NCBI GenBank assembly: GCA_030710605.1
Contig: CP092872.1
Location: forward strand, 4,722,715 to 4,786,714
From: Cordylochernes scorpioides
Taxonomy: Eukaryota > Arthropoda > Arachnida > Pseudoscorpiones > Chernetidae
Direction: 5' to 3'
Length of the DNA: 64,000 nucleotides
Part shown: piece after piece, positions 5,461 through 63,990 of the stretch
Position numbering within the stretch: position 1 is the first letter of the stretch
Layout of the letters: each line of letters begins with the position of its first letter
The notes under the pieces: model-generated
Database searches by the model: none
The model's input: the letters and a program-made list of their open reading frames with translations, nothing else
What the model was told of the DNA's origin: nothing
Translations under genes and position numbers: made by a program

Positions 5461-6599
5461 TTGTACAAAATACATATAAAGTTGAACCCATGTATGAATA
5501 AAATAGAAAATTATTTTTAATGAGTCCTTTAGATTAATTCCTTTTATAAGTAGTCTCCGCTGCAATATAGTTGGCATCTCTTTTTTCTGATTTATTTTCT
5601 TATATTATTTTTAATTTTAAATATATTTATATATAAACTTTTCACTAATATCTATTGTTTCTCAACTCAAAGGAATTTATTGTATTAGTATTTTTTAATA
5701 CACTATTATCAATTATTTTGATTTTGGACTTCTCTTTATTTACTAATTTTTCCCATTTCTCTATACATAAATTTCGTGAATTTTCAGTGGATGCCTTCGC
5801 CTCTGTAATACCTTTTTACCGGTAAAGTTGTATTTAAACAACAATCAACCTTGTAAATTTGATTTTTTAAAATGGTCGAATTATCGAAAGTGTCGAATTA
5901 TCGAAAGTGTCGAATTATCGATAGTGTCGAATTACAGTTTGTTTATTTATTTTTTAATAAGGTCCTCTTATCTTATCTGCAATATAGTTGTATTGTTCGA
6001 AATTTTATTTTCTAATTTGTTAATTTTTTTCTTTTTTTTTTCACTCTAATAATATTTATTTAAATCTAATAATTTTTAATTAATGCAATTTAATTAATAA
6101 TTTATTTAATTCAATGTCTATAGTTTCTTCCCTGAAATTGCTTACCAAACATGAGTCAGTGTGTCCTCAGTGTTAACAGTTGGAGTGTTAGAATGCGGAG
6201 AAGCAAAATAACTCCCTACTGAATTTCTCATAGTCTTACTCCCAGAGGAATGCATCCACACCAGTTAAACTCTAGGTTGGTGCTATTGTTATGCTTCTGA
6301 GAAGTTTAATCCTAAGCAGGGTCTTTGAAAATGGTACACGTGTGGTGATACAGAGCATGTGCTCTCATGTCCTTAAAGTAGTGTAGTTCTGTTGTTTGCA
6401 ATTTCATTTTCTGATTTGTTAAAATTTTTCTTCTATAGTTTCTCACCTGCGGATCCTTCGGGTAAACCTGGGTCGTTGCCCGGGTCACTCGGCTAGTTAT
6501 ATATATATATGAACATTTAAAAAATACTTTTTAGAGGATTCCAAATTTATCAAATAATTATAAAATTACTACATATATATATGAAAAAACAATGGAAAA

Positions 6600-6950
6600 A
6601 AAATATAAGTGGGTCAGGTGTTGATATTAAAAACAAAGTAGGCATATCCTGACCAGGAGCACATGTGCTTTTCAGAAGGCAGAGCGCCATCTGGTGGAAC
6701 ATAAATACACTATTCATCGATTTAACCTGTTCCCTGATATTTGGCCAACCCAATGATGTTGACGAGCGCCAACAGCGCGAAACGCGTTCGTGAATGCCTT
6801 TTCTTGATTTATCAAGAAATTGGGTTGGCCAAATATCAGGGAACAGGTTAAATCGATGAATAGTTGTTTTCAGTTCCACAGATGGCGCTTTGCCTTCTGA
6901 ACAGGACATGTGCTCCTGGTCAGGATATGCCTACTTTGTTTTTAATATAT
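6600..6950. mobile_element. Family B element, palindromic copy with degraded hammerhead
   Basis: The block is a large imperfect inverted repeat: GAGCACATGTGCTTTTCAGA...GCCATCTGGTGGAAC on the left is mirrored by the 6830-6945 sequence. A family B ribozyme remnant sits between the arms at about 6755-6793 (UGACGA, GCGC-CAACA-GCGC, GAAA, CGCGU) but C3 is U and stem I no longer pairs. An ORF across it is spurious. Confidence 0.6.
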
Positions 6951-6961
6951 ATATGTATATA

Positions 6962-7500
6962 TATAAAATAAAAGGATTTAAAAGCGCGAATGTTTCTTTT
7001 ATACATATAACGAACTTCTACTGTCCCTTACTGCGATGAACATGTATAAAAGAAACATTCGCGCTTTTAAATCATTTTATTTTATATATATAGATGGCGC
7101 GTTATTGCTTTGTGTTAATTTATGCCTAACTGGCCTTGTCTTTATAGTTTGCTGAAGAGCATTGCTCGAAGCAAATATTTGAATGTAATTCTACTGTCCT
7201 ATAAGCTTATGTCCATAGTTTACTTGAAAACCATTTCTAAGATTCCATCCTTCAGTGTAGCATATAAAAGCAGAATGATCCAATACAGTATTAGAGCTCT
7301 GAGAAGCGGTCTGGTGGATTAAATTGGCGAAACCGCTGGGAGGGTTCACCACTGATGAGCCAAGCCCTCCCAATATATTTTTTCATCGCAGTAAGGACAG
7401 TAGCAGTTCGTTTTATGTATAAAAGAAACATTCGCGCTTTTAAATCCTTTAATTTTATATATATAGATGGCGCGTTATTGCTTTGTGTTAATATATATGT
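6962..7500 (+). mobile_element. Family A element (alpha subfamily) with an extra inverted arm
   Basis: A right arm (TTCATCGCAGTAAGGACAG... to CATTCGCGCTTTTAAATCC) and the motif AGATGGCGCGTTATTGCTTT occur twice, at 7094 and 7465, giving a partly tandem, partly inverted layout. At 6962-7085 an arm pair without ribozyme forms a near-perfect palindrome. There is no coding capacity. Tandem plus inverted terminal repeats around a self-cleaving motif are typical of Penelope-like elements and retrozymes; this membership is inferred. Confidence 0.6.
7305..7371 (+). ncRNA. Reverse-order hammerhead motif, family A (reference copy, all pairs intact)
   Basis: Segments in order: stem III strand AGCGGU 7305-7310; C17 at 7311; stem I strand UGGUG 7312-7316; 7-nt linker; stem II strand UUGGC 7324-7328; GAAA 7329-7332; stem III strand CCGCU 7333-7337 (A15.1 at 7332); helix IV GGGAGGG 7338-7344; UU; stem I strand CACCA 7347-7351; CUGAUGA 7352-7358; stem II strand GCCAA 7359-7363; G; helix IV CCCUCCC 7365-7371. 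All pairs are Watson-Crick (III 6, I 5, II 5, IV 7). Canonical hammerheads run CUGAUGA, GAAA, UH cyclically; here the order is UH, GAAA, CUGAUGA. The predicted cut is after C7311. Catalysis is untested. Confidence 0.75.
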
Positions 7501-7769
7501 ATATTTATGTCGTGATCTAATGGAAGGGTACAACCGTTATATTTATAATCCACAAGAATTAGTTCCAGCCAAGTGAGCAACGACGTGCCGTAGCATTCAA
7601 CGCGATGTCTGCCATGTTTATTTTTGTACAGTTTTAATAGATGGATGAATTTGCATATTTACATTTAAACACAAGCTTAACATATTTACATACTTATTTT
7701 GGCGAAAAGAAATTATACATCTATAATATTATACATATTATGACATATATATGTTATTAAAAAAATGAG

Positions 7770-13289: not shown

Positions 13290-13839
13290 TTTTCAGGTAA
13301 AAAGACCATTACAAGGTTCAACAAGATAATCTATCTACAAAGGCCATGACAAGGTTCAACAAGATAATCTATCTACAAAGGCCATGACAAGGTTCAACAA
13401 GATAATCTATCTACAAAGGCCATGACAAGGTTCAACAAGATAATCTATGTACAAAGACCATGACAAGGGTCAACAAGATAATCTATCTACAAAGGCCATG
13501 ACAAGGTTCAACAAGATAATCTATCTACAAAGGCCATGACAAGGTTCAACAAGATAATCTATGTACAAAGACCATGACAAGGTTCAACAAGATAATCTAT
13601 CTACAAAGGCCATGACAAGGTTCAACAAGATAATCTATCTACAAAGGCCATGACAAGGTTCAACAAGATAATCTATGTACAAAGACCATGACAAGGGTCA
13701 ACAAGATAATCTATGTACAAAGACCATGACAAGGGTCAACAAGATAATCTATGTACAAAGACCATGACAAGGGTCAACAAGATAATCTATGTAAAAAGAC
13801 AATTACAAGGTTCAACAAGATAATCTATGTACAAAGACC
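13290..13839. repeat. 38-bp satellite, left block
   Basis: About 14 head-to-tail units of 38 bp (ACAAGGTTCAACAAGATAAT then CTATSTACAAAGRCCATG). Many units on this side carry the variant CTATCTACAAAGGCC, whereas the right block is mainly CTATGTACAAAGACC. The array is interrupted at 13839 by LINE copy 1. Confidence 0.95.
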
Positions 13840-13844
13840 TCCAT

Positions 13845-16800
13845 CCAGGACCTTGTACAAAATATCAATTGATGAACAGTCCCAATATAAATACGGCAAT
13901 AATTGTAAGAAATAGCACCTTAAAAATTCAATTAATTACAGAATTCACTAACACATTCGCTACAACTATAACCATACAAACAAAAAGTAAGAAAATATAT
14001 CTTTCCAACATTTATATACATCCGAATTCAATGAAAAGTGAGCACGAGGAATTTATGAAGAAGTTAATTAATACAAATTTACATATACCGGTGATAATTT
14101 GCGGCGATTTCAATGCCAGAGCTCCGTTATGGTATGATATCAGGAAAAATTATAATGGACATAGACTGATCCCTATCATAGATGAAATAAACTTAACTAT
14201 CCATAATAATAAAACTTTCACGTGTCGTGATGCAAGTGTGATTGATCTCACACTAACAAATAAACAAGCAATTGCGGCGATCAGAAATTGGAAGACACAG
14301 CAGATATCGCAAATTTCAGATCATGTAGCTATATCTTTTGAAATATATACAAACGAACAATTAGTTCAGAAAAATATTATTCCACTTGGAAATTTAATGA
14401 GAAAAATGCGAACTGGTTAAGTTTTAGTCAAAGAATTAACAGTACTGAACGAGAAAAAATTGAAAACTTACTAGACATAGTGGATACACCAAAAATGATT
14501 GATCAAACGGTAAAAGAACTTACGAACATGCTGATTGAGGCAGCACATAATTCACTCAAAGTAAATAATAATATAACAACAAAAAATAATATTAGTAATA
14601 AGTGGTGGAATACGAATTTACAGCTTCTAAAGGATCACTGTCATTATCTTAGGAACTGTTACTATAGAAACAAAAATTGCCCTAATCATATTAAACAATA
14701 CTATAAAAGCATACGAAATAAGTATTTACGGGAAATAGAAAAAGCTAGGAAAGCATCCTGGAGAATTTTTCTGGAGGAAAACAAATCGAACAACCCTTAT
14801 AGAAACTTATATAAGGTGTATAAAAACATCAAAAGTGGATCTAATCGGAAGAGAAATATGCAAATTTTGGAGGGTAATACTGATATGGAATGTTTGCAGA
14901 AGGGTGAGGAATTATTGAATAACTTATTTCCAGATGATAAATGTGAAGAAGATACAAACATCCATAAAAGTATAAGAAATTATAATTTAAAACTACTAAA
15001 TAAAGAAAAACCGATGGTTATGATTACTGAAGTTAACGACTTAATTGACAAATTAAATCCAAAGAAATCTCCCGGAATAGACAACATCTCTAACAACATG
15101 ATAAGGCACACTAAACAATTTATAGCTCCTATATTGGTGAAACTATTTCAAAAATGTTTAGACCTACAATACTATCCTGCTGAATGGAAAAGAGCAGAGG
15201 CAATAATTATTCCGAAACCTGGAAAAACAGATTTTAATAACTATAAAAATTATAGACCTTTATGTCTTAATCCCAACATTTCTAAAATATTTGAAAAAAT
15301 AATTAATAATAGAATAATAAAATATTATGAAGATTTTAATTTACTAAGTGATCGACAACATGGCTTTAGAAGATCGAAATCTACTATTACTGCACTAACT
15401 GAAATAATAAAAATTGCGTTAGAACATAAAACAAGAGAATATGCAGCAATAATTGCAGTGGATATTAGTGCAGCGTTTGATAATGCATGGTGGCCGGCCT
15501 TGATGAAAAGACTAGATGAAGATGGTGTGCAGGCTTCAACGATAAAACTTCTACAATCATACTTTGATAATAGAAGAATAAAATTTAGATATTCCTCAAC
15601 TGAAATTAATAAGAAACTAAGTAAAGGATGTCCACAGGGAGGACCACTATCTCCCACATTATGGAATATTCTTATTAATGAGATACTGAATAATAGTCTG
15701 GATGATAATTGTGAAACAATAGGATATGCAGATGATATTACGTTAATATGTTGGAATAAAACTCCTGAACAACTAAGAAAGACAATAGATAATGTATTAA
15801 GAAAAATCAATAAGTGGTGTGAAAGTCGTAAATTAAAATTGTCAGATGAAAAAACAAAAATATTATATTTATATAAATGCAATAGCGATATAATAGTCTC
15901 AGGTAGCAAGTTAATTAAACCGGTTGAAGAACTTAAGATCCTAGGAGTGACTATTAAAAATCACCGAGTCAGAAACAAACTGGACTTTACGCCTCACGTT
16001 AATGAAATGATCATAAAAGTAACTAGAGCTAGTGGATACCTATTTGGCCTGACAAAGAAAGCATGGGGTCTAGACTTTAGACGAAGACTGATATTGTATA
16101 AGACATTATATCGAAGTACAATTACTTATGGTTATCAAATATGGTATCCATTCATAAACAAAAAGTCTAAGGACAAACTAAATTCTCTTCAATATAAAAT
16201 ACTAAAACATTGTATACAGGCCTACAGTACAACATCATCGGACTGTACACACATACTTGCACAAGTCCCCAAACTTACTGATTATATTGAATCTAACATG
16301 TTGAAAACCGAAATAAATTACAACCGATTTGACTCTTCAAGTAGGAATATAATTTCTAATTATATAAGGGAAAAATTGCAGAAATACTATGAGAAGACTA
16401 ATACCATTTTCAAGTCCTTCTTCACTGACTCCCAAATACCCAAATATGTCAAGCCAAATTTTTACAGTGTCCAATTTTTTACTGGACACGGTAACTTTAG
16501 ATCATATTTGTACAAAGTCAGAAAGACGGATTCGCCTAAATGCTCATGTGGTGCAGAAGAAGAAAATCCTGTACATATTCTAACGGACTGTCGACTTGTA
16601 GAGGACTTGAGAGTCAAAAATCAAATAAATATAAATTGTATAAATCAAATAGTTAATAATAGATATATGTATATAAATTTTAATATATTTTGTAGAATGT
16701 TTTTTACTAATAGATAGCCTGGGCTGTAATAACTGGTATATAGTTATATGCTGTAAATAGCTCTAAATTTCTGTTCTTATCTGTGATGTTCACTAATATT

Positions 16801-16972: not shown

Positions 16973-19900
16973 ATGACAAGGTACAACAAGATAATCTATG
17001 TACAAAGACCATCACAAGGTTCAACAAGATAATCTATGTACAAAGACCATGACAAGGTTCAACAAGATAATCTATGTACAAAGACCATGACAAGGTTCAA
17101 CAAGATAATCTATGTACAAAGACCATGACAAGGTTCAAAAAGATAATCTATGTACAAAGACCATGACAAGGTTGAACAAGATAATCTATGTACAAAGACC
17201 ATGACAAGGTTCAACAAGATAATCTATGTACAAAGACCATGACAAGGTTCAACAAGATAATCTATGTACAAAGACCATGACAAGGTTCAACAAGATAATC
17301 TATGTACAAAGACCATGACAAGGTTCAACAAGATAATCTATGTACAAAGACCATCACAAGGTTGAACAAGGTAATCTATGTACAAAGACCATGACAAGGT
17401 TCAACAAGATAATCTATGTACAAAGACCATGACAAGGTTCAACAAGATAATCTATGTACAAAGACCATGACAAGGTTCAACAAGATAATCTATGTACAAA
17501 GACCATGACAAGGTTCAACAAGATAATCTATGTACAAAGACCATGACAAGGTTCAACAAGATAATCTATGTACAAAGACCATCACAAGGTTGAACAAGGT
17601 AATCTATGTACAAAGACCATGACAAGGTTCAACAAGATAATCTATGTACAAAGACCATGACAAGGTTCAACAAGATAATCTATGTACAAAGACCATGACA
17701 AGGTTCAACAAGATAATCTATGTACAAAGACCATGACAAGGTTCAACAAGATAATCTATGTACAAAGACCATGACAAGGTTCAACAAGATAATCTATGTA
17801 CAAAGACCATGACAAGGGTAAACAAGATAATCTATGTACAAAGACCATGACAAGGTTCAACAAGATAATCTATGTACAAAGACCATGACAAGGTTCAACA
17901 AGATAATCTATGTACAAAGACCATGACAAGGTTCAACAAGGTAATCTATGTACAAAGACCATGACAAGGTTCAACAAGATAATCTATGTACAAAGACCAT
18001 GACAAGGTTCAACAAGATAATCTATATACAAAGACCATGACAAGGTTCAACAAGATAATCTATGTACAAAGACCATGACAAGGTTCAACAAGATAATCTA
18101 TGTACAAAGACCATGACAAGGTTGAACAAGATAATCTATGTACAAAGACCATGACAAGGTTCAACAAGATAATCTATGTACAAAGACCATGACAAGGTTC
18201 AACAAGATAATCTATGTACAAAGACCATGACAAGGTTCAACAAGATAATCTATGTACAAAGACCATGACAAGGTTCAACAAGATAATCTATGTACAAAGA
18301 CCATGACAAGGTTCAACAAGATAATCTATGTACAAAGACCATCACAAGGTTCAACAAGATAATCTATGTACAAAGACCATCACAAGGTTGAACAAGGTAA
18401 TCTATGTACAAAGACCATGACAAGGGTAAACAAGATAATCTATGTACAAAGACCATGACAAGGTTCAACAAGATAATCTATGTACAAAGACCATGACAAG
18501 GTTCAACAAGATAATCTATGTACAAAGACCATGACAAGGTTCAACAAGATATTCTATGTACAAAGACCATGACAAGGTTGAACAAGATAATCTATGTACA
18601 AAGATCATGACAAGGTTCAACAAGATAATCTATGTACAAAGACCATGACAAGGTTCAACAAGGTAATCTATGTACAAAGACCATGACAAGGTTCAACAAG
18701 ATAATCTATGTACAAAGACCATGACAAGGTTCAACAAAATAATCTATGTACAAAGACCATGACAAGGTTCAACAAGATAATCTATGTACAAAGACCATGA
18801 CAAGGTTCAACAAGATAATCTATGTACAAAGACCATGACAAGGTTCAACAAGGTAATCTATGTACAAAGACCATGACAAGGTTCAACAAGATAATCTATG
18901 TACAAAGACCATGACAAGGTTCAACAAGATAATCTATGTACAAAGACCATGACAAGGTAGAACAAGGTAATCTATGTACAAAGACCATGACAAGGTTCAA
19001 CAAGGTAATCTATGTACAAAGACCATGACAAGGTTAAACGAGATAATCTATGTACAAAGACCATGACAAGGTTCAACAAGATAATCTATGTACAAAGACC
19101 ATGACAAGGTTCAACAAGATAATCTATGTACAAAGACCATGACAAGGTTCAACAAGATAATCTATGTACAAAGACCATGACAAGGTTCAACAAGATAATC
19201 TATGTACAAAGACCATGACAAGGTTCAACAAGGTAATCTATGTACAAAGACCATGACAAGGTTCAACAAGATAATCTATGTACAAAGACCATCACAAGGT
19301 TCAACAAGATAATCTATGTACAAAGACCATGACAAGGTTGAACAAGATAATCTATGTACAAAGACCATCACAAGGTTCAACAAGATAATCTATGTACAAA
19401 GACCATGACAAGGTTCAACAAGATAATCTATGTACAAAGACCATGACAAGGTACAACAAGATAATCTATGTACAAAGACCATGACCTGGTTCAACAAGAT
19501 AATCTATGTACAAAGACCATAACAAGGTTCAACAAGATAATCTATGTACAAAGACCATAACAAGGTTCAACAAGATAATCTATGTACAAAGACCATGACA
19601 AGGTTCAACAAGATAATCTATGTACAAAGACCATGACAAGGTTCAACAAGATAATCTATGTACAAAGACCATGACCTGGTTCAACAAGATAATCTATGTA
19701 CAAAGACCATAACAAGGTTCAACAAGATAATCTATGTACAAAGACCATGACAAGGTTCAACAAGGTAATCTATGTACAAAGACCATGACAAGGTTCAACA
19801 AGAAAATCTATGTACAAAGACCATGACAAGGTTCAAAAAGATAATCTATGTACAAAGACCATGACAAGGTTCAACAAGGTAATCTATGTACAAAGACCAT

Positions 19901-20640
19901 GACAAGGTTCAACAAGATAATCTATGTACAAAGACCATGACCTGGTTCAACAAGATAATCTATGTACAAAGACCATAACAAGGTTCAACAAGATAATCTA
20001 TGTACAAAGACCATGACAAGGTTCAACAAGATAATCTATGTACAAAGACCATGACAAGGTTCAACAAGATATTCTATGTACAAAGACCATGACAAGGTTC
20101 AACAAGATATTCTATGTACAAAGACCATGACAAGGTAGAACAAGGTAATCTATGTACAAAGACCATGACAAGGTTCAACAATATAATCTATGTACAAAGA
20201 CCATGACAAGGTTCAACAAGATAGATAATCTATGTAGAAAGACCATGACAAGGTTCAACAAGATAGATAATCTATGTACAAAGACCATGACAAGGTTCAA
20301 CAAGATAATCTATCTACAAAGACCATGACAAGGTAGAACAAGATAATCTATGTAGAAAGACCATGACAAGGTAGAACAAGGTAATCTATGTACAAAGACC
20401 ATGACAAGGTTCAACAATATAATCTATGTACAAAGACCATGACAAGGTTCAACAAGATAGATAATCTATGTAGAAAGACCATGACAAGGTTCAACAAGAT
20501 AGATAATCTATGTACAAAGACCATGACAAGGTTCAACAAGATAATCTATCTACAAAGACCATGACAAGGTAGAACAAGATAATCTATGTAGAAAGACCAT
20601 GACAAGGTAGAACAAGATAATCCAGGCACAAAGACCATCC
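16973..20640. repeat. 38-bp satellite, right block, about 96 units
   Basis: Highly homogeneous 38-bp units with scattered single changes (CATCACAAGG, GACCTGG, AAGGTAATC) that recur together, evidence of block amplification. The last ~470 bp (20135-20606) is two copies of a 236-bp higher-order unit made of six monomers, two of them with a GATA insertion. It ends in diverged units near 20640. No ORF survives in it. Confidence 0.95.
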
Positions 20641-21052
20641 CAAGGTCTGGCGTGTGAAGTGTCAATAAAGGCCGAGACTGGATAACTGTTTTTAGTTAGT
20701 TTTTTAGGCAATATATCAGACGATCTGCCCCACTGAATATTTTATAAGATAATTACCAAAATTTTGCGCCATTATTCTTTAGTCAGAAATGCTTTTTAGG
20801 CCTAAATCAATGAGATCTATTCTGGGAAAATCATTCCCGGATTAAAAAGGTAAAATTCTTCAATCTACCTGGCGATATTGTCTTGTCACTGAGTTGTTCT
20901 TATTTCATTGACCGGATCTCTTCATTGTCACCTCGACTCTTTCTGTGGAAATACAAAGTTATCCAGAAAGTTCTTATTTTTTCGAAAACGTTGTTTTTCC
21001 TATAAATTGACGAGTATTATTATTATTTCGAATATATTATAACTAGACGAAT
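20641..21052. other. Satellite edge and unassigned sequence
   Basis: It starts GGTCTGGCGTGTGAAGTGTC and then AATAAAGG, and runs into AT-rich sequence with no visible gene. It could be single-copy flank; I see no boundary motif. Confidence 0.35.
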
Positions 21053-21186: not shown

Positions 21187-21563
21187 TTTTTAAAAGTGGC
21201 CGCTATAGACAGGGTGGTCTGTATAGACAGGTGGATGTATCACACAGCTGATAACAGGGTTGCCTAGAGTGGCCGCTATAGACAGGGTGTTCTGTATAGA
21301 CAGGTGGATGTATCACACAGCTGATAACAGGGTTGTCTAGAGTGGTCGCTATAGACAGGGTGGTCTGTATAGACAGGTGTATGTATCACACTGCTGATAA
21401 CAGGGTTGCCTAAAGTGACCGCTATAGACAGGGTGGTCTGTATAGACAGGTGAATGTAACACACTGATGATAACAGGGTAGCCTAAAGTGACCGCTATAG
21501 ACAGGGTGGTCTGTATAGACAGGTGGATGTATCACACAGCTGATAACAGGGTTGTCTAGAGTG
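21187..21563. repeat. 73-bp satellite, left block
   Basis: About five units with period 73 bp (ataaCAGGG at 21251, 21324, 21397). Each contains GGCCGCTATAGACAGGG, TCTGTATAGACAGGTG, CACACAGCTGATAAC. The minus frame stays open for two to three units and gives repeating MCYIHLSIQTT peptides, a by-product of the repeat. Confidence 0.9.
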
Positions 21564-22079
21564 ACAATTAAAACATACTTTATTGACACTCGTCAATAGT
21601 TACATTCAATCAAGAGTTAATGGGATTTACAGATTAGGGGGGGGGGAGCATTTCGCTGAGTATGCGCAGGCCCTCACGCACAAAGGGATCTGAGCTCCGA
21701 GCGCGCTCAGATGCAGCGCTGACGATCCCGGCAAGAGTGGTTCTCTTCTGAGTGGAGAGGCGCCTGAGGAGAGGTTCCCTATCCTCGGGGAAAATAATCG
21801 CCTCTACGATGTCACCCTCTGTGACTCTTATATCGGATAAAGGCTCCGAGTAGCGCTCACGGCTTAATTCATAAATTATGTCATTTGCCTGGTCGTAGCA
21901 GGCATCAATGAATTCGGTAGACAGTGGAGGTGGAGGTGTCGCGATGTCCGGCGACGTCTTTTCCCCGTGGAGAGCGGGTGGTGTTGGCTTAGCAGGCCAA
22001 GGCGCAGGCAGTGTGGGTGTTGGAGGCACTGCTGGTGTTGTCCTGAGCTCGGCCTTGACTTGTCCGAGGACTTTGTAAA
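21564..22079 (-). pseudogene. GC-rich 5'-truncated retrocopy of an unknown mRNA, inserted in satellite
   Basis: The insert is bordered by the direct repeat GTTGTCTAGAGTG (21551-21563 and 22080-22092). On the minus strand the reading frame is open from the junction (LYKVLGQVKAEL...) through Pro-rich and acidic segments (...PPPPLSTEFIDACYDQA..., VTEGDIVEAIIFPEDREP) to TAA at 21634. A 70-nt 3' UTR with AATAAA ends about 15 nt past the signal, as a processed transcript would, but with no poly(A). No domain is recognised. The frame has no start of its own: the first candidate is GTG. Confidence 0.6.
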
Positions 22080-22548
22080 GGTTGTCTAGAGTGGCCGCTA
22101 TAGACAGGTGTATGTATCACACAGATGATAACAGGGTTATCTAGAATGGCCGCTATAGACAGGGTGGTCTGTATAGACAGGTGGATGTATCACACAGCTG
22201 ATAACAGGGTTGTCTAGAGTGGTCGCTATAGACAGGGTGGTCTGTATAGACAGGTGTATGTATCACACTGCTGATAACAGGGTTGCCTAAAGTGACCGCT
22301 ATAGACAAGGTGGTCTGTATAGACAGGTGAATGTAACACACTGATGATAACAGGGTAGCCTAAAGTGACCGCTATAGACAGGGTGGTCTGTATAGACAGG
22401 TGGATGTATCACACAGCTGATAACAGGGTTGTCTAGAGTGGCCGCTATAGACAGGTGTATGTATCACACAGCTGATAACAGGGTTGTCTAGAATGGCCGC
22501 TATAGACAGGTGTATGTATCACACAGCTGATAACAGGGTTGTCTAGAG
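22080..22548. repeat. 73-bp satellite, right block
   Basis: It continues the same unit as 21187-21563. Several units here are shortened: the GGGTGGTCTGTATAGACA part is missing at 22095, 22445 and 22495. It is followed by a GC-rich 22549-22625 segment of unknown nature. Confidence 0.88.
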
Positions 22549-22629: not shown

Positions 22630-23010
22630 ATTATATATAGAGATACTTAATACAATTACTTTATTAAAATTCGAAACTATTATAGACGTATAAAATATAA
22701 AATGAAAGGATTTAAAATCACGAATGTTTCTTTTATACATAATACAAACTTCTACTGTCCTTACTGCGATGAAAAAATATATTGGGAGGGCTTGGCTCAT
22801 CAGTGGTGAACCCTCCCAGCGGTTTCGCCAATTTAATCCACCAGATCGCTTCTCAGAGCTCTAATACTGTATTATAGACGTGTAAGATTCTTTTAAAAAT
22901 TAAACAATATCTACTGCCCTTACTGCAATGGAAAAATTAATGGGCAGTAGAAATTTTCAATTTTTAAAAGAATTGCGTCTATAATAGTTTCGAATTTTCA
23001 TAACAGATTG
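22630..23010 (-). mobile_element. Family A alpha copy nested in a family A beta copy
   Basis: The outer beta element has arms TTCGAAACTATTATAGACG... and the mirror at 22940-22995. It is split at ATTATAGACGT, which flanks the insert on both sides (22679-22689 and 22871-22881). The inner alpha copy (22690-22870) is truncated and contains the motif at 22784-22850. Confidence 0.7.
22784..22850 (-). ncRNA. Reverse-order hammerhead motif, family A, one mismatch
   Basis: It is the same as 7305-7371 except that the stem III strand reads AGCGAU. This breaks the 15.2-16.2 pair next to the cleavage site (AUC instead of GUC). Stems I, II and IV and the CUGAUGA and GAAA cores are intact. Confidence 0.65.
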
Positions 23011-24032
23011 CGTTCTAATTCATCATAAATACTTTATACATAATACAAAGACATTATACATAACGTCACACAGGTAAAAATCGAATCTTAAATATTGTTT
23101 TATAAAATTTGGTGTTAGCTTTTCTTGTTTTATTAATATAATTGAGTTGATCAAATATCATGGAACTAGTTAAATAAACGTTTAGTTGATTTTTGTTTCA
23201 CTAGATGGCGCTCTACCAATTAAAATGATCATGTAAGTGGTCAAGAAATGCCTTTTTGTTTTTAATATCTATTTATCTATATATTTATATATCGTGCTGT
23301 ATTTTCAAATAATAATTTAATTACACTTCGAATATATATTCTACGAAATGGCAAAGATGATCTAATTCCAATATTGAAAGCTTGGTCGTCGTGATACAAA
23401 TATTTCTAATTCCGAACAGACGATTATTTGGGATATCTCTGGGGCAGACGAAAACAATTTATTCGCAGACGAGATCAATGAGATGTCGATGAGGGTTGTC
23501 ATTATTGCAGAAGGTTTATTGTATCACGTGATATAGCTCGAGATTCTTCTGTGTATATATCTTTATTTAAACATTGCGCCATCTACCTGTCAAGATTGGA
23601 AGCTTTTTTTTTTTTGCGCATCGACTATTTTAAGATTGATATATATATATATTTTTACTTGAATAGAATTCAATTGAATGAATGATCAATTTGAAAAAAG
23701 TTTCTGGTTCAAAATCACATTAATAGGTACCGCTCAACAAAAGCAACCTAATTTATGATAATTGAAACAGTGAATAATATGTGAAGGTTATTCACATATT
23801 AAACAAAATGTTAACGCGGGATTCAATCCCGGTTCATGGCTGTCGGGAATCGAGGGTGTTACCCACTCGTCCCCCGACTTTGTATTTGAAAAAAGGGTGG
23901 CATAAGTTTTGTAAAAATATATTATAAGATACAAGATACAATTATAATTGTATAATAATCATTTATTTCATTAAGAAAAGTTCTAATTATGTAAATACTT
24001 ATTTTTATGTATATATTATCACAAAGCAATAA
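23011..24032. other. AT-rich stretch with a decayed family B/D scrap
   Basis: Around 23180-23265 is a family B-like segment (GTTTCACTAGATGGCGCTCT). At 23573 GCGCCATCTACC occurs. The segment 23336-23545 has an open, unremarkable frame that I do not recognise. No gene is called. Confidence 0.4.
23817..23885 (-). mobile_element. tRNA-like SINE head fragment
   Basis: The minus strand has GACGAGTGGGTAACAC (A-box-like) and CGGGATTGAATCCCGC (B-box-like) at roughly tRNA spacing, with an AT-rich continuation. The arms do not make a clean cloverleaf, so I read it as a SINE promoter region or tRNA relic. Confidence 0.45.
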
Positions 24033-24350
24033 TGCGCCATCTATACTTATAAAATGAAAGGATTTAAAAGCACGAATGTTTCTTTTATACATAATACAAA
24101 CTTCTACTGCCCTTACTGCGATGAAAATATATTTTGGAAGGGCTTGGCTCATCAGTGGTGAACCCTCCCAGCGGTTTCGTCAATTATTTCGCCAATCTGG
24201 TGGATTAAATTGGGAAACCGCTGGGAGGGTTCACCACTGATGAGCCAAGCCCTCCCAATATATTTTCTCATCGCAGTAAGGGCAGTAGAAGTTTGTATTA
24301 TGTATAAAATAAACATTCGTTCTTTTAAATCCTTTTATTATATATAAATA
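24033..24350. mobile_element. Family A alpha, two head-to-head halves
   Basis: A minus-strand copy (24133-24190) and a plus-strand copy (24196-24257) face each other across an 8-bp join. Each keeps GAAAC-helix IV-CUGAUGA but lacks the AGCGGU strand, so neither can form stem III. The outer arms (CACGAATGTTTCTTTTATAC) are complete. Confidence 0.65.
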
Positions 24351-26278: not shown

Positions 26279-26695
26279 AAATACACTCATGGACAAAACT
26301 TAAAGAAGTTGTACCTTTTAACATGTATATCGGGATTCAGATAATAACTATAAAAGATATACTCATGGACAAAACTTAAGGAATTTGTACCTTTTAGCAT
26401 GTACAGCGGGATTCAGATGATAACTATGAAATACATACTCATGGACAAAACTTAAGGAAGTTGTACATTTTAACATATACAGCGGGATTCAGACAATAAC
26501 TCTGAAAGATACACTCATAGACAAACTTCAAGGAAGTTGTACCTTTTAACATGTATATGGGGATTCAGACAATAACTCTGAAAGATACACTCATAGACAA
26601 AACTCAAGGAAGTTGTACCTTTCAACATGTATATCGGGATTCAGACAATAACTCTGAAAGATATTACAGTGACCTTTATTGAGGACACATGAGAT
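26279..26695 (+). repeat. Dispersed tandem repeat family G, four to five partial units
   Basis: Repeats of CACTCATGGACAAAACTTAA, GAAGTTGTACCTTTTAACAT, GGGATTCAGACAATAACTCT. A complete unit as seen at 36743-37105 is about 115-120 bp and also contains TTACAGTGACCTTTATTGA and GACACACGAGATAACC. Units here are shortened to ~60-85 bp. Confidence 0.75.
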
Positions 26696-36742: not shown

Positions 36743-37105
36743 AGATACACTCATGGACAAAATTTAAAGAAGCTGTACCTTTTAACATGTATATCGGTAT
36801 TCAGACAATAACTCTGAAAGATATTACAGTGACCTTTATTGAAGACTCATGAGATAACCAATATACACTCATAGACAAAACTTAAGGAAGTTGTACCTTT
36901 TAGCATGTACCATATATCGGGATTCAGACAATAACTCTGAAAGATTTTACAGTGACCTTTATTGAAGACACACGAGATAACCAATATACACTCATGGACA
37001 AAACTTAAGGAAGTTTTACCTTTTAGCATGTATATCGGGATTCAGACAATAACTCTGAAATATATTACAGTGACCTTTATTGAAGATACACGAGATAACC
37101 TAGTA
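36743..37105 (+). repeat. Family G tandem repeat, three full units
   Basis: Three head-to-tail units of ~118 bp with boundaries near ACTCATGGACAAAA. Minus-strand ORFs across it read LSFVYECILVIS repeatedly and are by-products. Confidence 0.8.
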
Positions 37106-40119: not shown

Positions 40120-40525
40120 ATATTTTACACAAATAAATTTACTGGCAAAGCGTTTCTTTTAAATATCATCAAATATTATCTCTACAGACCTTACTGCAAT
40201 GATATGAGTTATTGAATGAGAGGGCTTGGCTCATCAGTAGTGAACCCTCTCAGCGGTTTCGCCAAATTAATCTCTAGACCGCTCTACTATTGTATTGGAC
40301 TGGTTTTGTTATATACCCTGCATTTTCTATGGAAGGCAGCTTAGGGGTGTTTATTGAACTATGGACATAAGCTTATAGGTCTGTAGAGGTACATACATAT
40401 AATTTCAAGGTATTGCATCGAGCAAAGCTCTTCCGCAAAATATGTTTTCATAATCAATATATATTAGTAAATTAAAAGAAACGCTTTGCCAGTAAATTTA
40501 TTTCTGTAAAATTTTAACGATAGAT
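40120..40525 (-). mobile_element. Family A gamma element
   Basis: Inverted arms AAATTTACTGGCAAAGCGTT ... AACGCTTTGCCAGTAAATTT flank the motif at 40218-40283 and the internal GACATAAGCTTATAGG segment. It ends AGATGGCAATT. Confidence 0.65.
40218..40283 (-). ncRNA. Reverse-order hammerhead motif, family A gamma (compensatory changes)
   Basis: Stem III AGCGGU/ACCGCU, C17, GAAA, CUGAUGA and stem II UUGGC/GCCAA are intact. Helix IV is GAGAGGG/CCCUCUC: both sides changed and pairing is kept. Stem I is UAGAG/CACUA, where the second pair changed G-C to A-U and the fourth became A-A. The I-II linker is 6 nt. Confidence 0.7.
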
Positions 40526-51517: not shown

Positions 51518-51842
51518 GGATGTACGAAACTTAAAGAAGTTGTACTCTTTAGCATGTATATCGGGATAAAGATAACTCTGAAAGATATTACAGTGACCTT
51601 TATTGAAGACACACGGGATAACCAATATACACTCATGGAGGAAGTTGTACCTTTTAGCATGTATATTGGGATTCAGACAATAACTCTGAAAGATATTACA
51701 GTGACCTTTATTGAAGACACACGAGATAACCAATATACACTCATGGAGGAAGTTGTACCTTTTAGCATGTATATTGGGGTTCAGACAATAACTCTGAAAT
51801 ATATTACAGTGACCTTTATTGAAGACACACGAGATAACCAAG
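51518..51842 (+). repeat. Family G tandem repeat, three units
   Basis: Units TTTAGCATGTATATTGGGAT, TTACAGTGACCTTTATTGAA, GACACACGAGATAACC with period ~109 bp; slightly shorter than at 36743 because the ACAAAACTTAAGG part is missing. Confidence 0.78.
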
Positions 51843-53084: not shown

Positions 53085-53475
53085 ACACAAAGCAATAACG
53101 CGCCATCTATACATATAAAATAAAAGGCTTTAAAAGCGCGAATGTTTCTTTTGTACATAAAACGAACTTCTACTGTCCTTACTGCGATGAAAAAATATAT
53201 TGGGAGGGCTTGGCTCATCAGTGGTGAACCCTCCCAGCGGTTTCGCCAATTTAATCCACCAGACCGCTTCTCAGAGCTTTAATACTGTATTGGATCATTC
53301 TGCTTTTATATGCAACACTGAAGGATGGAATCTTAGAAATGGTTTTCAAGTAAACAAGTTTTCAAGTGAGCCAAGCCCTCCCAATATATTTTTTCATCGC
53401 AGTAAGGACAGTAGAAGTTCGTTTTATGTATAAAAGAAACATTCGCGCTTTTAAATCCTTTTACAAATCATTTAT
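53085..53475 (-). mobile_element. Family A alpha element, inverted-arm copy
   Basis: AACGCGCCATCTATAC start; arms GCGCGAATGTTTCTTTTGTA ... TAAAAGAAACATTCGCGCTT; motif at 53202-53268. The right arm also repeats TGAGCCAAGCCCTCCC, so the second half of a ribozyme is present in inverted orientation at 53367-53383. Confidence 0.7.
53202..53268 (-). ncRNA. Reverse-order hammerhead motif, family A (second perfect copy)
   Basis: It is identical in all paired and core positions to 7305-7371: AGCGGU 53263-53268, C17 53262, UGGUG 53257-53261, CCCUCCC 53202-53208, all read on the minus strand. Two copies 46 kb apart and on opposite strands keep the complete set. Confidence 0.75.
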
Positions 53476-56529: not shown

Positions 56530-56950
56530 TAAAATCTTTCGAAACTATTTTAAAGGCGTGAGATTCTTTTTGAAATTAAACAATTTCTACTGCCCTTACT
56601 GCAATGGAAAAATTAATGGGAGGGGGGGGGGGCTGGCTCATCAGTGGTGAACCCTCCCAGCGGTTTCGCCAGTTTAATTTACCATACCGCTGTTATATTG
56701 CATTTTTGCAACTTCCTTTTATAGTGATACTGTTGGTAGACTCTTGGAATGGGTATTTTAGATAAACTATGGACATAAGCTTTGAGGACAGTAGAATTAC
56801 ATACGATTATGAATATATAATATGCTTCGAGCAATTGCTCTTCCGCAGTAAGGGCAGTAGAAATTGTTTAATTTCAAAAGAATCTTACGCCTTTAAAATA
56901 GTTTCGAATTTTGATAACAGATGGCGCGCTAGTGCATCATATAATAAAAT
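56530..56950 (-). mobile_element. Family A beta element, complete arms
   Basis: Arms of ~60 bp (TTCGAAACTATTTTAAAGGC...TTTCTACTGCCCTTACTGC and the mirror 56845-56920), then ACAGATGGCGCGCTAGT. The motif lies at 56618-56691, and GATAAACTATGGACATAAGC in the middle. Confidence 0.7.
56618..56691 (-). ncRNA. Reverse-order hammerhead motif, family A beta
   Basis: AGCGGU, A17, UGGUA, linker AAUUAAA, CUGGC, GAAA, CCGCU, GGGAGGG, UU, CACCA, CUGAUGA, GCCAG, then a C-rich helix IV strand lengthened to about ten C. All core residues are present. Stem II carries the compensated C-G pair; only the distal stem I pair is lost. Confidence 0.7.
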
Positions 56951-57117: not shown

Positions 57118-57290
57118 AGTATCTGTCTGGTGGATTAAATTGGCGAAACCGCTGGGAGGGTTCACCACTGATAAGCCAAGCCCTCCCAATATATTTATTC
57201 ATCGCAGTAAGGGCAGTAGAAGTCTGTATTATGTATAAAAGAAACATTCGTGCTTTTAAATCCTTTCATTTTACAGTACCTATATAACTT
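57118..57290 (+). mobile_element. Family A alpha, 5'-truncated
   Basis: The copy starts inside the motif (CTGTCTGGTGGATTAAATTG), so the stem III strand is replaced. The core is CUGAUAA. The right arm to ATTCGTGCTTTTAAATCC is complete. Confidence 0.6.
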
Positions 57291-60256: not shown

Positions 60257-63200
60257 CTATCTATTACTAAAAAACATTCTACAAAATCTATTAAAATTTA
60301 TATACATATATATATTATTAACTATTTGATTTAGACAATTTATATTTATTTGATTTTTGACTCTCAAGTCCTCTACAAGTCGACAGTCCGTTAGAATATG
60401 TACAGGATTTTCTTCTTCTGCACCACATGAGCATTTAGGCGAATCCGTCTTTCTGACTTTGTACAAATATGATCTAAAGTTACCGTGTCCAGTAAAAAAT
60501 TGGACATTGTAAAAATTTGGCTTGACATATTTGGGTATTTGGGAATCAGTGAAGAAGGACTTGAAAATGGTATTAGTCTTCTCATAGTATTTCTGCAATT
60601 TTTCCCTTATGTAATTAGAAATTATATTCCTACTTGAAGAGTCAAATCGGTTGTAATTTATTTCGGTTTTCAACATGCTAGATTCAATATAATCAGTAAG
60701 TATGGGGACTTGTGCAAGTATGTGTGTACAATCCGATGATGTTGTACTGTAGGCCTGTATACAATGTTTTAATATACTATATTGAAGATAATTTAGTTTG
60801 TCCTTAGACTTTTTGTTTATGAATGGATACCATATTGGGTAACCATAGGTAATTGTACTTCGATATAATGTCTTATACAATATCAGTCTTCGTCTAAAGT
60901 CTAGACCCCATGCTTTCTTTGTCAGGCCAAATAGGTATCCACTAGCTCTAGTTACTTTTATGATCATATCATTAACGTGAGGCGTAAAGTCCAGTTTGCT
61001 TCTGACTCGGTGATTTTTAATGGTCACTCCTAGGATCTTAAGTTCTTCAGCCGGTTTAATTAACTTGCTACCTGAGACTATTATATCGCTATTGCATTTA
61101 AATAAATATAATATTTTTGTTTTTTCATCTGACAATTTTAATTTACGACTTTCACACCACTTATTGATTTTTCTTAATACATTATCTATTGTCTTTCTTA
61201 GTTGTTCAGGAGTTTTATTCCAACATATTAGCGTAATATCATCTGCATATCCTATTGTTTCACAATTATCATCCAGATTATTATTCAGTATCTCATTAAT
61301 AAGAATATTCCATAATGTGGGAGACAGTGGTCCTCCCTGTGGACATCCTTTACTTAGTTTCTTATTAATTTCAGTTGAGGAATATCTAAATCTTATTCTT
61401 CTATTATCAAAGTATGATTGTAGAAGTTTTATCATTGAAGCCTGCACACCATCTTCATCTAGTCTTTCCATCAAGGCCGGCCACCATGCATTATCAAACG
61501 CTGCACTAATATCCACTGCAATTATTGCTGCATATTCTCTTGTTTTATGTTCTAACGCAATTTTCATTATTTCAGTTAGTGCAGTAATAGTAGATTTCGA
61601 TCTTCTAAAGCCATGTTGTCGATCACTTAGTAAATTAAAATCTTCATAATATTTTATTATTCTGTTATTAATTATTTTTTCAAATATTTTAGAAATGTTG
61701 GAATTAAGACATAAAGGTCTATAATTTTTAAAGTTATTAAAATCAGTTTTTCCAGGTTTCGGAATAATTATTGCCTCTGCTCTTTTCCATTCAGCAGGAT
61801 AGTATTGTAGGTCTAAACATTTTTGAAATAGTTTCACCAATATAGGAGCTATATATTGTTTAGTGTGCCTTATCATGTTGTTAGAGATGTTGTCTATTCC
61901 GGGAGATTTCTTTGGATTTAATTTGTCAATTAAGTCGTTAACTTCAGTAATCATAACCATCGGTTTTTCTTTATTGAGTAGTTTTAAATTATAATTTCTT
62001 ATACTTTTATGGATGTTTGTATCTTCTTCACATTTATCATCTGGAAATAAGTTATTCAATAATTCCTCACCCTTCTGCAAACATTCCATATCAGTATTAC
62101 CCTCCAAAATTTGCATATTTCTCTTCCGCTTAGATCCACTTTTGGTGTTTTTGTACACCTTATATAAGTTTCCATAAGGGTTGTTCGACTTGTTTTCCTC
62201 CAGAAAAATTCTCCATGATGCTTTCCTAGCTTTTTCTATTTCCCGTAAATACTTATTTCGTATGCTTTTATAGTATTGTTTAATATGATTAGGGCAATTT
62301 TTGTTTCTATAGTAACAGTTTCTAAGATAATGACACAGTGATCCTTTAGAAGCTGTAAATTCGTATTCCACCACTTATTACTAATATTATTTTTGGTTGT
62401 CATATTATTATTTACTTTAAGTGAATTATGTGCTGCCTCAATCAGTATGTTCGTAAGTTCTTTTACCGTTTGATCAATCATTTCTGGTGTATCCACTATG
62501 TCTAGTAAGTTTTCAATTTTTTCTCGTTCAGTACTGTTAATTCTCTGACTAAAACTTAACCAGTTCGCATTTTTCTCATTAAATTTTCAAGTGGAATAAT
62601 ATTTTTCTGAACTAAATTGTTCGTTTGTATATATTTCAAAAGATATAGCTACATGATCTGAAATTTGCGATATCCAATTCCAAATTCTGATCGCCGCAAT
62701 TGCATGTTTATTTGTTAGTGTGAGATCAATCACACTTGCATCACGACACGTGAAAGTTTTACTATTATGGATAATTAAGTTTATTTCATCTATGATAGGG
62801 ATCAGTCTATGTCCATTATAATTTTTTCTGATATCATACCATAACGGAGCTCTGGCATTGAAATCGCCGCAAATTATCACCGGTATATGTAAATTTGTAT
62901 TAATTAACTTCTTCATAAATTCCTCGTGCTCACTTTTCATTGAATTCGGATGTATATAAATGTTGGAAAGATATATTTTCTTACTTTTTGTTTGTATGGT
63001 TATAGTTGTAGCAAATGAGTTAGTGAATTCTGTACTTAATTGAATTTTTAAGCTGCTATTTCTTACAATTATTGCCGTATTTATGTTGGGACTGTTCATC
63101 AATTGATATTTTGTACAAGGTCCTGGAAATATTACCTCCTCTTTGATTATATAAGGTTCTTGTATCATTACTATATCTGCATTTCTAATTTCATCAGATG

Positions 63201-63288
63201 CACAAAGCTCATTTATACAGTTTTTGCTTTTTCTGGTATTTTGTTGAATAATTTTGATTTTGTCAATATATAGTTTTCGCCCCATCAT
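60257..63288 (-). pseudogene. LINE ORF2, copy 2, broken at two sites
   Basis: The start is MMGRKLYIDKIKIIQQNTRK, a typical endonuclease N-terminus (QxNxxxS region, MIQEPYI), then CGDFNARAPLW and SDHVAI. A TGA at about 62587 replaces a TGG still present in copy 1. A 2-bp insertion near 62340 (CACTGTGTC against CACTGTC) shifts the frame. From 62374 the reverse transcriptase is open: NYRPLCL, AVDISAAFDNAWW, KGCPQGGPLSP, YADD at 61238-61249, and CSCG...HILTDC. Copies 1 and 2 carry different lesions. Confidence 0.85.
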
Positions 63289-63300
63289 TCTGGAAGCTTA

Positions 63301-63734: not shown

Positions 63735-63990
63735 ATTGCTGAAATTCATAAATTTATTTCAAGCGCTATTTTAAAACATAAGTGTTTAAAATATTCTCTA
63801 CAGACATATACATATACCGCAATACATATAAATTGAAAATGGGGTGGCTCATCAATGGTGAACTCTCCCAAATAGCGAAACCGCTGAGAGGATTCACTAC
63901 TGATGAACAATACCTTCCCTTTTTCAATTTTTATTCATTGCAGTGTATATAAATGGTTGTAGTAAAAATGATTCTAAATATTTATGTTCA
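63735..63990. mobile_element. Family A gamma-like, decayed inverted copy
   Basis: GGGGTGGCTCATCAATGGTG (minus half) meets AGCGAAACCGCTGAGAGGAT and CACTACTGATGAACAATACC (plus half). Neither half has all strands. It abuts the 5' end of LINE copy 2. Confidence 0.55.

Follow-up and report, generated by a model that had tools for sequence, protein, structure and literature searches.

A type-SGC hammerhead motif within a probable retrozyme-like repeat of the pseudoscorpion Cordylochernes scorpioides

Here we describe a hammerhead motif, and the short repeated element that carries it, in a 64,000-nt stretch of the Cordylochernes scorpioides genome (the window, meaning the whole stretch of DNA that was analysed). 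The element copy lies at 7042-7496 on the plus strand, where it comprises 1.22 units of a 372-nt repeat (from unit position 104 to 185), has direct repeats at its two ends (7042-7123 and 7415-7496), and shows no open frame of at least 120 aa. An inverted partial copy (unit positions 63-157) stands head-to-head with it at 6953-7048 on the minus strand. A TATA box, TATAAAAG, is read from the sequence at 7263-7270 (plus strand), its first T being 49 nt before the predicted cleavage site, C7311/U7312, which is placed by hammerhead geometry and by the starts of genome-wide copies.

By direct reading, the plus-strand motif at 7305-7371 holds UH, GAAA and CUGAUGA blocks in the order S-G-C, with all hammerhead core nucleotides present and with C rather than G at H17 (C7311). 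The 5' part of block S, AGCGGTC (7305-7311; sequence and descriptor), comprises the stem III 5' strand AGCGG, U16.1 and H17, and is followed by the stem I 5' strand TGGTG (UGGUG; 7312-7316) and by block G (7324-7332), in which the stem II 3' strand TTGGC (7324-7328) precedes GAAA (7329-7332), both assigned by sequence, descriptor and alignment. Further along come the stem III 3' strand CCGCT (CCGCU; 7333-7337; sequence and folding), the helix IV 5' strand GGGAGGG (7338-7344; folding and alignment), a TT spacer, and block C (7347-7363; sequence, descriptor and alignment), made up of the stem I 3' strand CACCA (7347-7351), CTGATGA (7352-7358) and the stem II 5' strand GCCAA (7359-7363); the helix IV 3' strand CCCTCCC (CCCUCCC; 7365-7371; sequence and folding) closes the motif. 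Stems I, II and III are each paired at 5/5 positions (III being counted beyond A15.1-U16.1), and the 7 bp of helix IV at 7338-7371 join stems I and II. A first-pass annotation of this DNA had described three blocks flanked by fully pairing stems, as this reading bears out, and had proposed a pair of hairpins with loops that come together as stems I and II, with cleavage expected between C7311 and U7312. A pseudoknot-free fold of 7294-7375 gives both hairpins, III and IV (-29.3 kcal/mol, z -2.1; 7 of 200 shuffles were equally stable), and the published type-SGC topology agrees with the loop pairing (Eckert et al., 2023; PMC10085705).

The cyclic order C-G-S of hammerhead types I, II and III is not the one found at 7305-7371. 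A canonical hammerhead there was considered and rejected, both on the S-G-C block order and on Rfam hammerhead profiles, which gave no match over 6500-7600 at E up to 5. The earlier claim that circular permutation cannot produce this order stands; Eckert et al. (PMC10085705) describe the same topology as type SGC (the HRIMA-1 motif and its variants), a non-circular permutation that has a helix joining stems I and II and counts 583 predicted members; the accompanying suggestion that the topology was possibly undescribed had thus been overtaken in 2023 and is abandoned. According to the same paper, in vitro cleavage at the predicted base occurs in several type-SGC RNAs, and disruptive and compensatory mutants of SGC-3 (loss and rescue) show stems I, II and III and the I/II helix all to be required. 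The motif shares with these RNAs the S-G-C order, the core nucleotides, stems I to III, the I/II helix, a short linker from stem I to stem II and, as in a few published members, a 0-nt link from stem III to that helix; it differs in lying in an animal genome with ~125,000 matches, and activity, tested in the published RNAs (PMC10085705), is a prediction here. By its sequence, block order and helices the motif is a type-SGC hammerhead of predicted activity, a class assignment to which covariation lends modest support.

The motif is highly repeated. Allowing up to 3 mismatches, a 34-nt part of it is matched at 124,606 places in the 2.62 Gb assembly (62,271 on the forward strand and 62,335 on the reverse), against 0 matches in the same assembly for the reversed 34-nt control pattern at the same threshold. 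Sound in its description of the motif and its topology and mistaken on novelty, the first-pass annotation had noticed neither this repeat of ~125,000 matches nor the pile-up of insert 5' ends at the predicted site. Within the window, blastn with 7290-7390 as query returned 17 more matches, some complete and some partial, on both strands (E below 1e-5). Three main subfamilies occur in the loci read: A, to which the window motif belongs; A2, with a UA cleavage site and CTGGC/GCCAG as stem II; and B, with TAG/CTA as stem I and GAGAGGG/CCCTCTC as helix IV. All three are present on the minus strand of the window, the descriptor finding a second subfamily A copy with intact core and stems at 53202-53268, a B copy with the B-type stem I and helix IV at 40218-40283, and an A2 copy with the UA site, the A2 stem II and a damaged helix IV at 56627-56691; another A copy, with one stem III mismatch, lies at 22784-22850.

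The conservation of pairing was followed across 17 aligned copies, complete or nearly so, chosen by hand and related to one another. Standard pairs fill 94.3% of the 387 pair cells, and helix IV is paired in 99.2% of its cells. Both sides of a pair change together in stem I (G-C/A-U, 3 rows), stem II (U-A/C-G, 7 rows) and helix IV (G-C/A-U, 4 rows); stem III has no such change, and 13/17 rows lack the outer G-C pair of stem I. The number of both-side pairs (three) was matched by 212 of 500 shuffles and the cell count by 0 of 500, while partners slid by 1-3 columns gave at most one both-side pair. Position H is C or A in 17/17 rows, and some aligned copies carry core mutations (e.g., CTAATGA in locus L027). 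In 17 related rows, covariation by itself gives modest support to the fold. Apart from the three subfamilies, a family D (locus L010 at 786, L003 at 753, L013 at 2377) carries blocks G and C from about the cleavage site on, preceded by another upstream sequence, common to its copies, that offers stem III no partner; it may represent a fusion at that site. L010 was considered as a 5' end at the site and rejected as an internal replacement, its far upstream sequence being shared.

The short links within the motif bear on which RNA form would be active. Stems I and II are connected by GATTAAA, 7 nt, or 5 nt if a G.U and an A-U pair extend stem I, compared with typically 3 nt in type SGC (PMC10085705); stem III passes into helix IV with 0 nt between them, and stem II is separated from helix IV by 1 nt, a single G. 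The 0-nt link may fit the known fold poorly. This caveat, which the first-pass annotation had attached to its tight stem III/helix IV link, is raised likewise by Eckert et al., in whose account a few natural type-SGC members with a 0-nt link are not obviously compatible with the crystal structure (PMC10085705). The ribozyme could therefore be real and yet work as a dimer or between tandem units, with hairpin III of one RNA joined by hairpin IV of another to relieve the strain. Tandem and head-to-head copies are common in the fetched loci, and weak axolotl retrozyme hammerheads cleave better as dimeric constructs (PMC7229834), both of which agree with such an arrangement. Against it, single constructs of published type-SGC RNAs cleave as they are transcribed (PMC10085705), although their link lengths may differ from 0 nt, and helix IV is retained in three subfamilies, as a cis fold requires. 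We regard a dimeric active form as unlikely, yet as the best placed of the alternatives.

The element itself is a short unit, often with a putative promoter of its own. Its 372-nt length is seen in the tandem copy at L020, and a further tandem copy lies at L015/L016. Across the window and 30 loci, 80 unit matches (some overlapping and double-counted) reach at most 1.92 units; their 5' ends are scattered and their 3' ends fall mostly at unit positions 90-190. Because B copies resemble the A unit no further than about position 93, the 3' ends at 90 reflect lost likeness rather than insert ends. Among 43 distinct leaders ending in AGCGGTH, a few of them from loci fetched for other reasons, a simple pattern finds TATA upstream of the cleavage site at 49 nt in 16, at 38-39 nt in 16, at 31 nt in 1 and in none of the remaining 10; leaders differ between subfamilies, and 32/43 nonetheless have TATA at 38-39 or 49 nt. 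Given a usual TATA spacing of ~30 nt, transcription would begin 8-18 nt before the site (near 7294 in the window copy), at or just 5' of the stem III strand. Many copies contain the promoter half and cannot have arisen from cleaved monomers beginning at U7312, so multimeric or circular templates would be needed, as have been proposed for animal retrozymes (PMC7229834).

If the predicted site is cut in vivo, insert 5' ends should be concentrated there, and counts of exact 32-mers preceded by three bases that each depart from the family sequence point in this direction. Genome-wide, subfamily A has 101 starts at the site (7312), 17 at +4 (7316) and 34 at -4 (7308); subfamily B has 213 at the site and 13 at +4; and A2 has 281 against 118, an excess of only 2.4-fold, with 24 listed A2 control places sharing the preceding triplet CCC and perhaps forming one subfamily. 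Two or three positions were counted per subfamily and the site and control 32-mers differ, which makes the size of each excess rough; some matches are, furthermore, duplicates or arrays. Counting places more than 500 kb apart leaves 84 for the A site (100 listed of 101) against 13 (of 17) at +4 and 34 (of 34) at -4, and for B 49 within the first 100 listed of 213 (a list that extends no further than contig C8), against 12/13 for its whole-genome control.

Sequences were fetched from subfamilies A and B: 40 of the 100 listed A sites, 14 of the 17 and 6 of the 34 A controls, and 20 B stretches. At A sites the break falls at TGGTGG. By a rough blastn call, the 41 junctions in the 40 A loci abut an inverted element copy in 25 cases, a direct copy in 11 and neither in 5, a call made approximate by the B reference being itself partly palindromic; the left side is without element likeness at L044, L060, L079 and L080. 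At least three A-site loci (L051, L063, L069) are small insertions within an intact leader, and some direct-orientation junctions, such as L075, may be internal deletions, so A-site starts are not all insert ends; nor are those of controls L090, L099 and L100. In two subfamily B arrays, L102 (118-nt units) and L101 (122-nt units), one repeat meets the next at the site, though the first unit of each array starts elsewhere. Two window copies on the plus strand, recognised by sequence likeness, begin at about the cleavage site: one at 57125-57273 (from unit position 370, with its core mutated to CTGATAA) and one at 24196-24345 (from unit position 371), head-to-head with an inverted copy at 24005-24185. 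Site starts amount to a few hundred among ~125,000 copies and the leader is kept in many sampled copies (the 43 distinct leaders above), from which it follows that uncut or circular templates must be common. The pile-up nevertheless suggests that the cleavage site is used in vivo.

End counts alone cannot separate a start from a cut, and U7312 could accordingly be read as the transcription start, with insert ends produced by transcription and the hammerhead likeness a relic. The promoter speaks against this, TATA lying 38-39 or 49 nt upstream in 32/43 leaders instead of ~30 nt; moreover, subfamilies differ by 10 nt in this spacing and yet share ends at the site, and in three subfamilies the ends match the position predicted by hammerhead geometry. 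We consider a start at U7312 very improbable.

A more basic objection is that the repeat is a palindromic DNA sequence without RNA function in which hammerhead words occur by coincidence. Many copies do stand in inverted, hairpin-forming arrangements, including those at 25/41 A-site junctions. A simple inverted repeat was nonetheless rejected as the source of the pairing, as stems I and II are crossed in a way that such a repeat does not produce, and pairs are kept in the subfamilies through both-side changes. Chance was further gauged with descriptors in which the stem sequences were free, all six block orders were allowed over a span of at most 120 nt, and UH was required with UG excluded. 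At 14 or more of 15 pairs, the strict form gave 4 matches on both strands of the 64-kb window, all SGC, against 0 in 20 first-order Markov windows. The lax form (12 or more of 15 pairs, UG likewise excluded by design) gave 25 distinct SGC, 4 CGS and 3 GCS matches over 205,932 bases, compared with 2 SGC and 7 of other orders in five Markov controls of 205,932 bases each; this sample was mostly fetched because it bears the repeat, its count is therefore not independent, most of the 25 SGC matches are close copies, and some are junction hybrids (L078, L110, L117). The exact motif pattern had 0 matches in the viral contigs searched. A palindrome with coincidental hammerhead words seems to us scarcely credible. 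Equally hard to credit is an active canonical hammerhead put together from three tandem units (C from the first, G from the second, S from the third), for although tandem copies exist (L015/L016, L020) and the resulting order would be C-G-S, each RNA would need three complete units where the longest of the 80 matches spans 1.92, and helix IV would have no role.

With these alternatives weighed, the best explanation as a whole is, very probably, that a type-SGC hammerhead sits inside a short retrozyme-like retrotransposon of C. scorpioides. In common with metazoan retrozymes (Cervera and de la Pena, 2020; PMC7229834), the element has short, apparently protein-free tandem units, a (here predicted) ribozyme within the unit and a huge copy number; metazoan retrozymes have units of ~170-400 nt and reach up to 120,000 copies in axolotl. 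Those retrozymes carry a canonical type I hammerhead, whereas the element has a non-circular permutation in its place, and many of its fetched copies are inverted head-to-head. Penelope-like elements with minimal type I hammerheads are likewise tandem or partially tandem, with the hammerhead in the repeated part, and reverse transcription starts internally in them, as perhaps here too (PMC11167929); unlike them, the element shows no RT or GIY-YIG ORF, its 372-nt unit being too short for an RT ORF.

For this retrozyme-like element we infer a life cycle in which cleavage, circular RNA and a reverse transcriptase each play a part. The TATA promoter would start transcripts ~8-18 nt before the cleavage site, judging by its spacing, leaving the stem III 5' strand in a short leader. 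The RNA would fold into hairpin III (AGCGGU/ACCGCU) and hairpin IV (GGGAGGG/CCCUCCC), whose loops would pair as stems I and II to build the hammerhead core and cut after H17, the site expected from geometry, thereby fixing the RNA 5' end at U7312. From tandem copies the cut would free 372-nt monomers which, by analogy with animal retrozymes, might be circularised. A reverse transcriptase from another element, perhaps (as a guess) a Penelope-like one, could begin copying near unit positions 150-190; on cleaved RNA it would stop or jump at U7312, and the resulting inserts, head-to-head pairs and concatemers would carry a junction at that base, while on multimeric or circular RNA it would continue through the promoter.

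We further favour, with less assurance than the retrozyme-like setting as such, the view that this is an animal retrozyme lineage built on a non-circularly permuted, pseudoknotted hammerhead, in which block S lies in the leader and transcripts trim their own 5' ends, with hundreds of insert ends as footprints of in vivo cleavage and with the repeat as the first genomic and animal home of type SGC. Type-SGC hammerheads have so far been reported almost only from RNA of unknown organisms, with no named host or role, and PMC10085705 reports none in genomes of known organisms. Our search of the literature after 2022, with most subscription papers outside it, turned up the 2023 paper and two on structure-alignment tools and no later report of type-SGC occurrences; among the papers listed by searches on retrozymes in arthropods, hammerheads in arachnids and Cordylochernes repeats, none dealt with this element or with repeats of Cordylochernes. 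As far as the searched literature shows, the S-G-C topology is already known and the abundant, retrozyme-like animal setting is new. Were this reading correct, type SGC would be tied to a host animal, a mobile element and a promoter, would have a likely job, and would offer a very large set of natural variants, among them the 0-nt link that Eckert et al. found difficult to square with the crystal structure. A scrambled, pseudoknotted ribozyme could then serve an abundant animal-genome repeat, and insert ends could be used as a record of in vivo ribozyme cleavage.

The same genome holds other candidate ribozymes. A second hammerhead family (L031-L040) is of canonical C-G-S type I, with HH9 as its best Rfam match (34.8 bits, gathering 52); it shares the host and core words of the SGC motif and differs in its C-G-S order and its stems. 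A decayed HH9-like piece was recognised by sequence likeness at 6760-6818 of the window, ~500 bp upstream of the SGC motif. Genome-wide, Rfam Hammerhead_1 at E up to 1 gave 38 matches, none above cut-off, and the type III profile gave 0. A Type-P1 twister-like match lies on the minus strand of L036 (1027-1081; 41.9 bits, gathering 67.2, E 2.9e-6). The genome also encodes GIY-YIG domains such as Penelope-like elements carry: of 17,015 candidates, 150 were scored and 146 matched. Three of six GIY-YIG loci (L122, L124, L125) show by eye canonical minimal hammerhead-like motifs, as in Penelope-like elements, in which CTC-CTGACGA is followed downstream by GAAAC and by GTCGAG, the last in places decayed; one of the six fetched, L124, has an element copy at its edge, and no Pfam reverse transcriptase was found in the five ORFs scanned from these loci. 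Among the repeat-bearing loci, a U4 snRNA match adjoins B-type copies on the plus strand of L018 (1857-1965; 83.4 bits), and tRNA matches occur in L006, L126, L003 and L010.

Two LINEs lie in the window, its two RT ORFs being paired with EEP-type endonuclease ORFs. The first, with its EEP ORF at 13824-14417 and its RT ORF at 14342-16714, stands between 38-bp tandem stretches at 13301-13839 (14 copies) and 16973-20646 (96 copies) of apparently the same repeat; the second, with the same domains, is on the minus strand at 60260-63297. The protein of the first at 14342-16714 is most similar to C. scorpioides sequences, its top three matches being 90, 91 and 84% identical over part of its length. 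These LINEs were considered as mobilisers of the element and set aside, no link being seen. A palindromic, decayed element copy (63826-63938) is situated upstream of the ORFs of the minus-strand LINE, at a distance of ~530 bp. Further tandem arrays occupy 603-1045 (32 bp), 21195-22548 (73/55 bp) and 26281-26663 (76 bp), and 76-bp-like units recur at 36745-37100 and 51536-51841.
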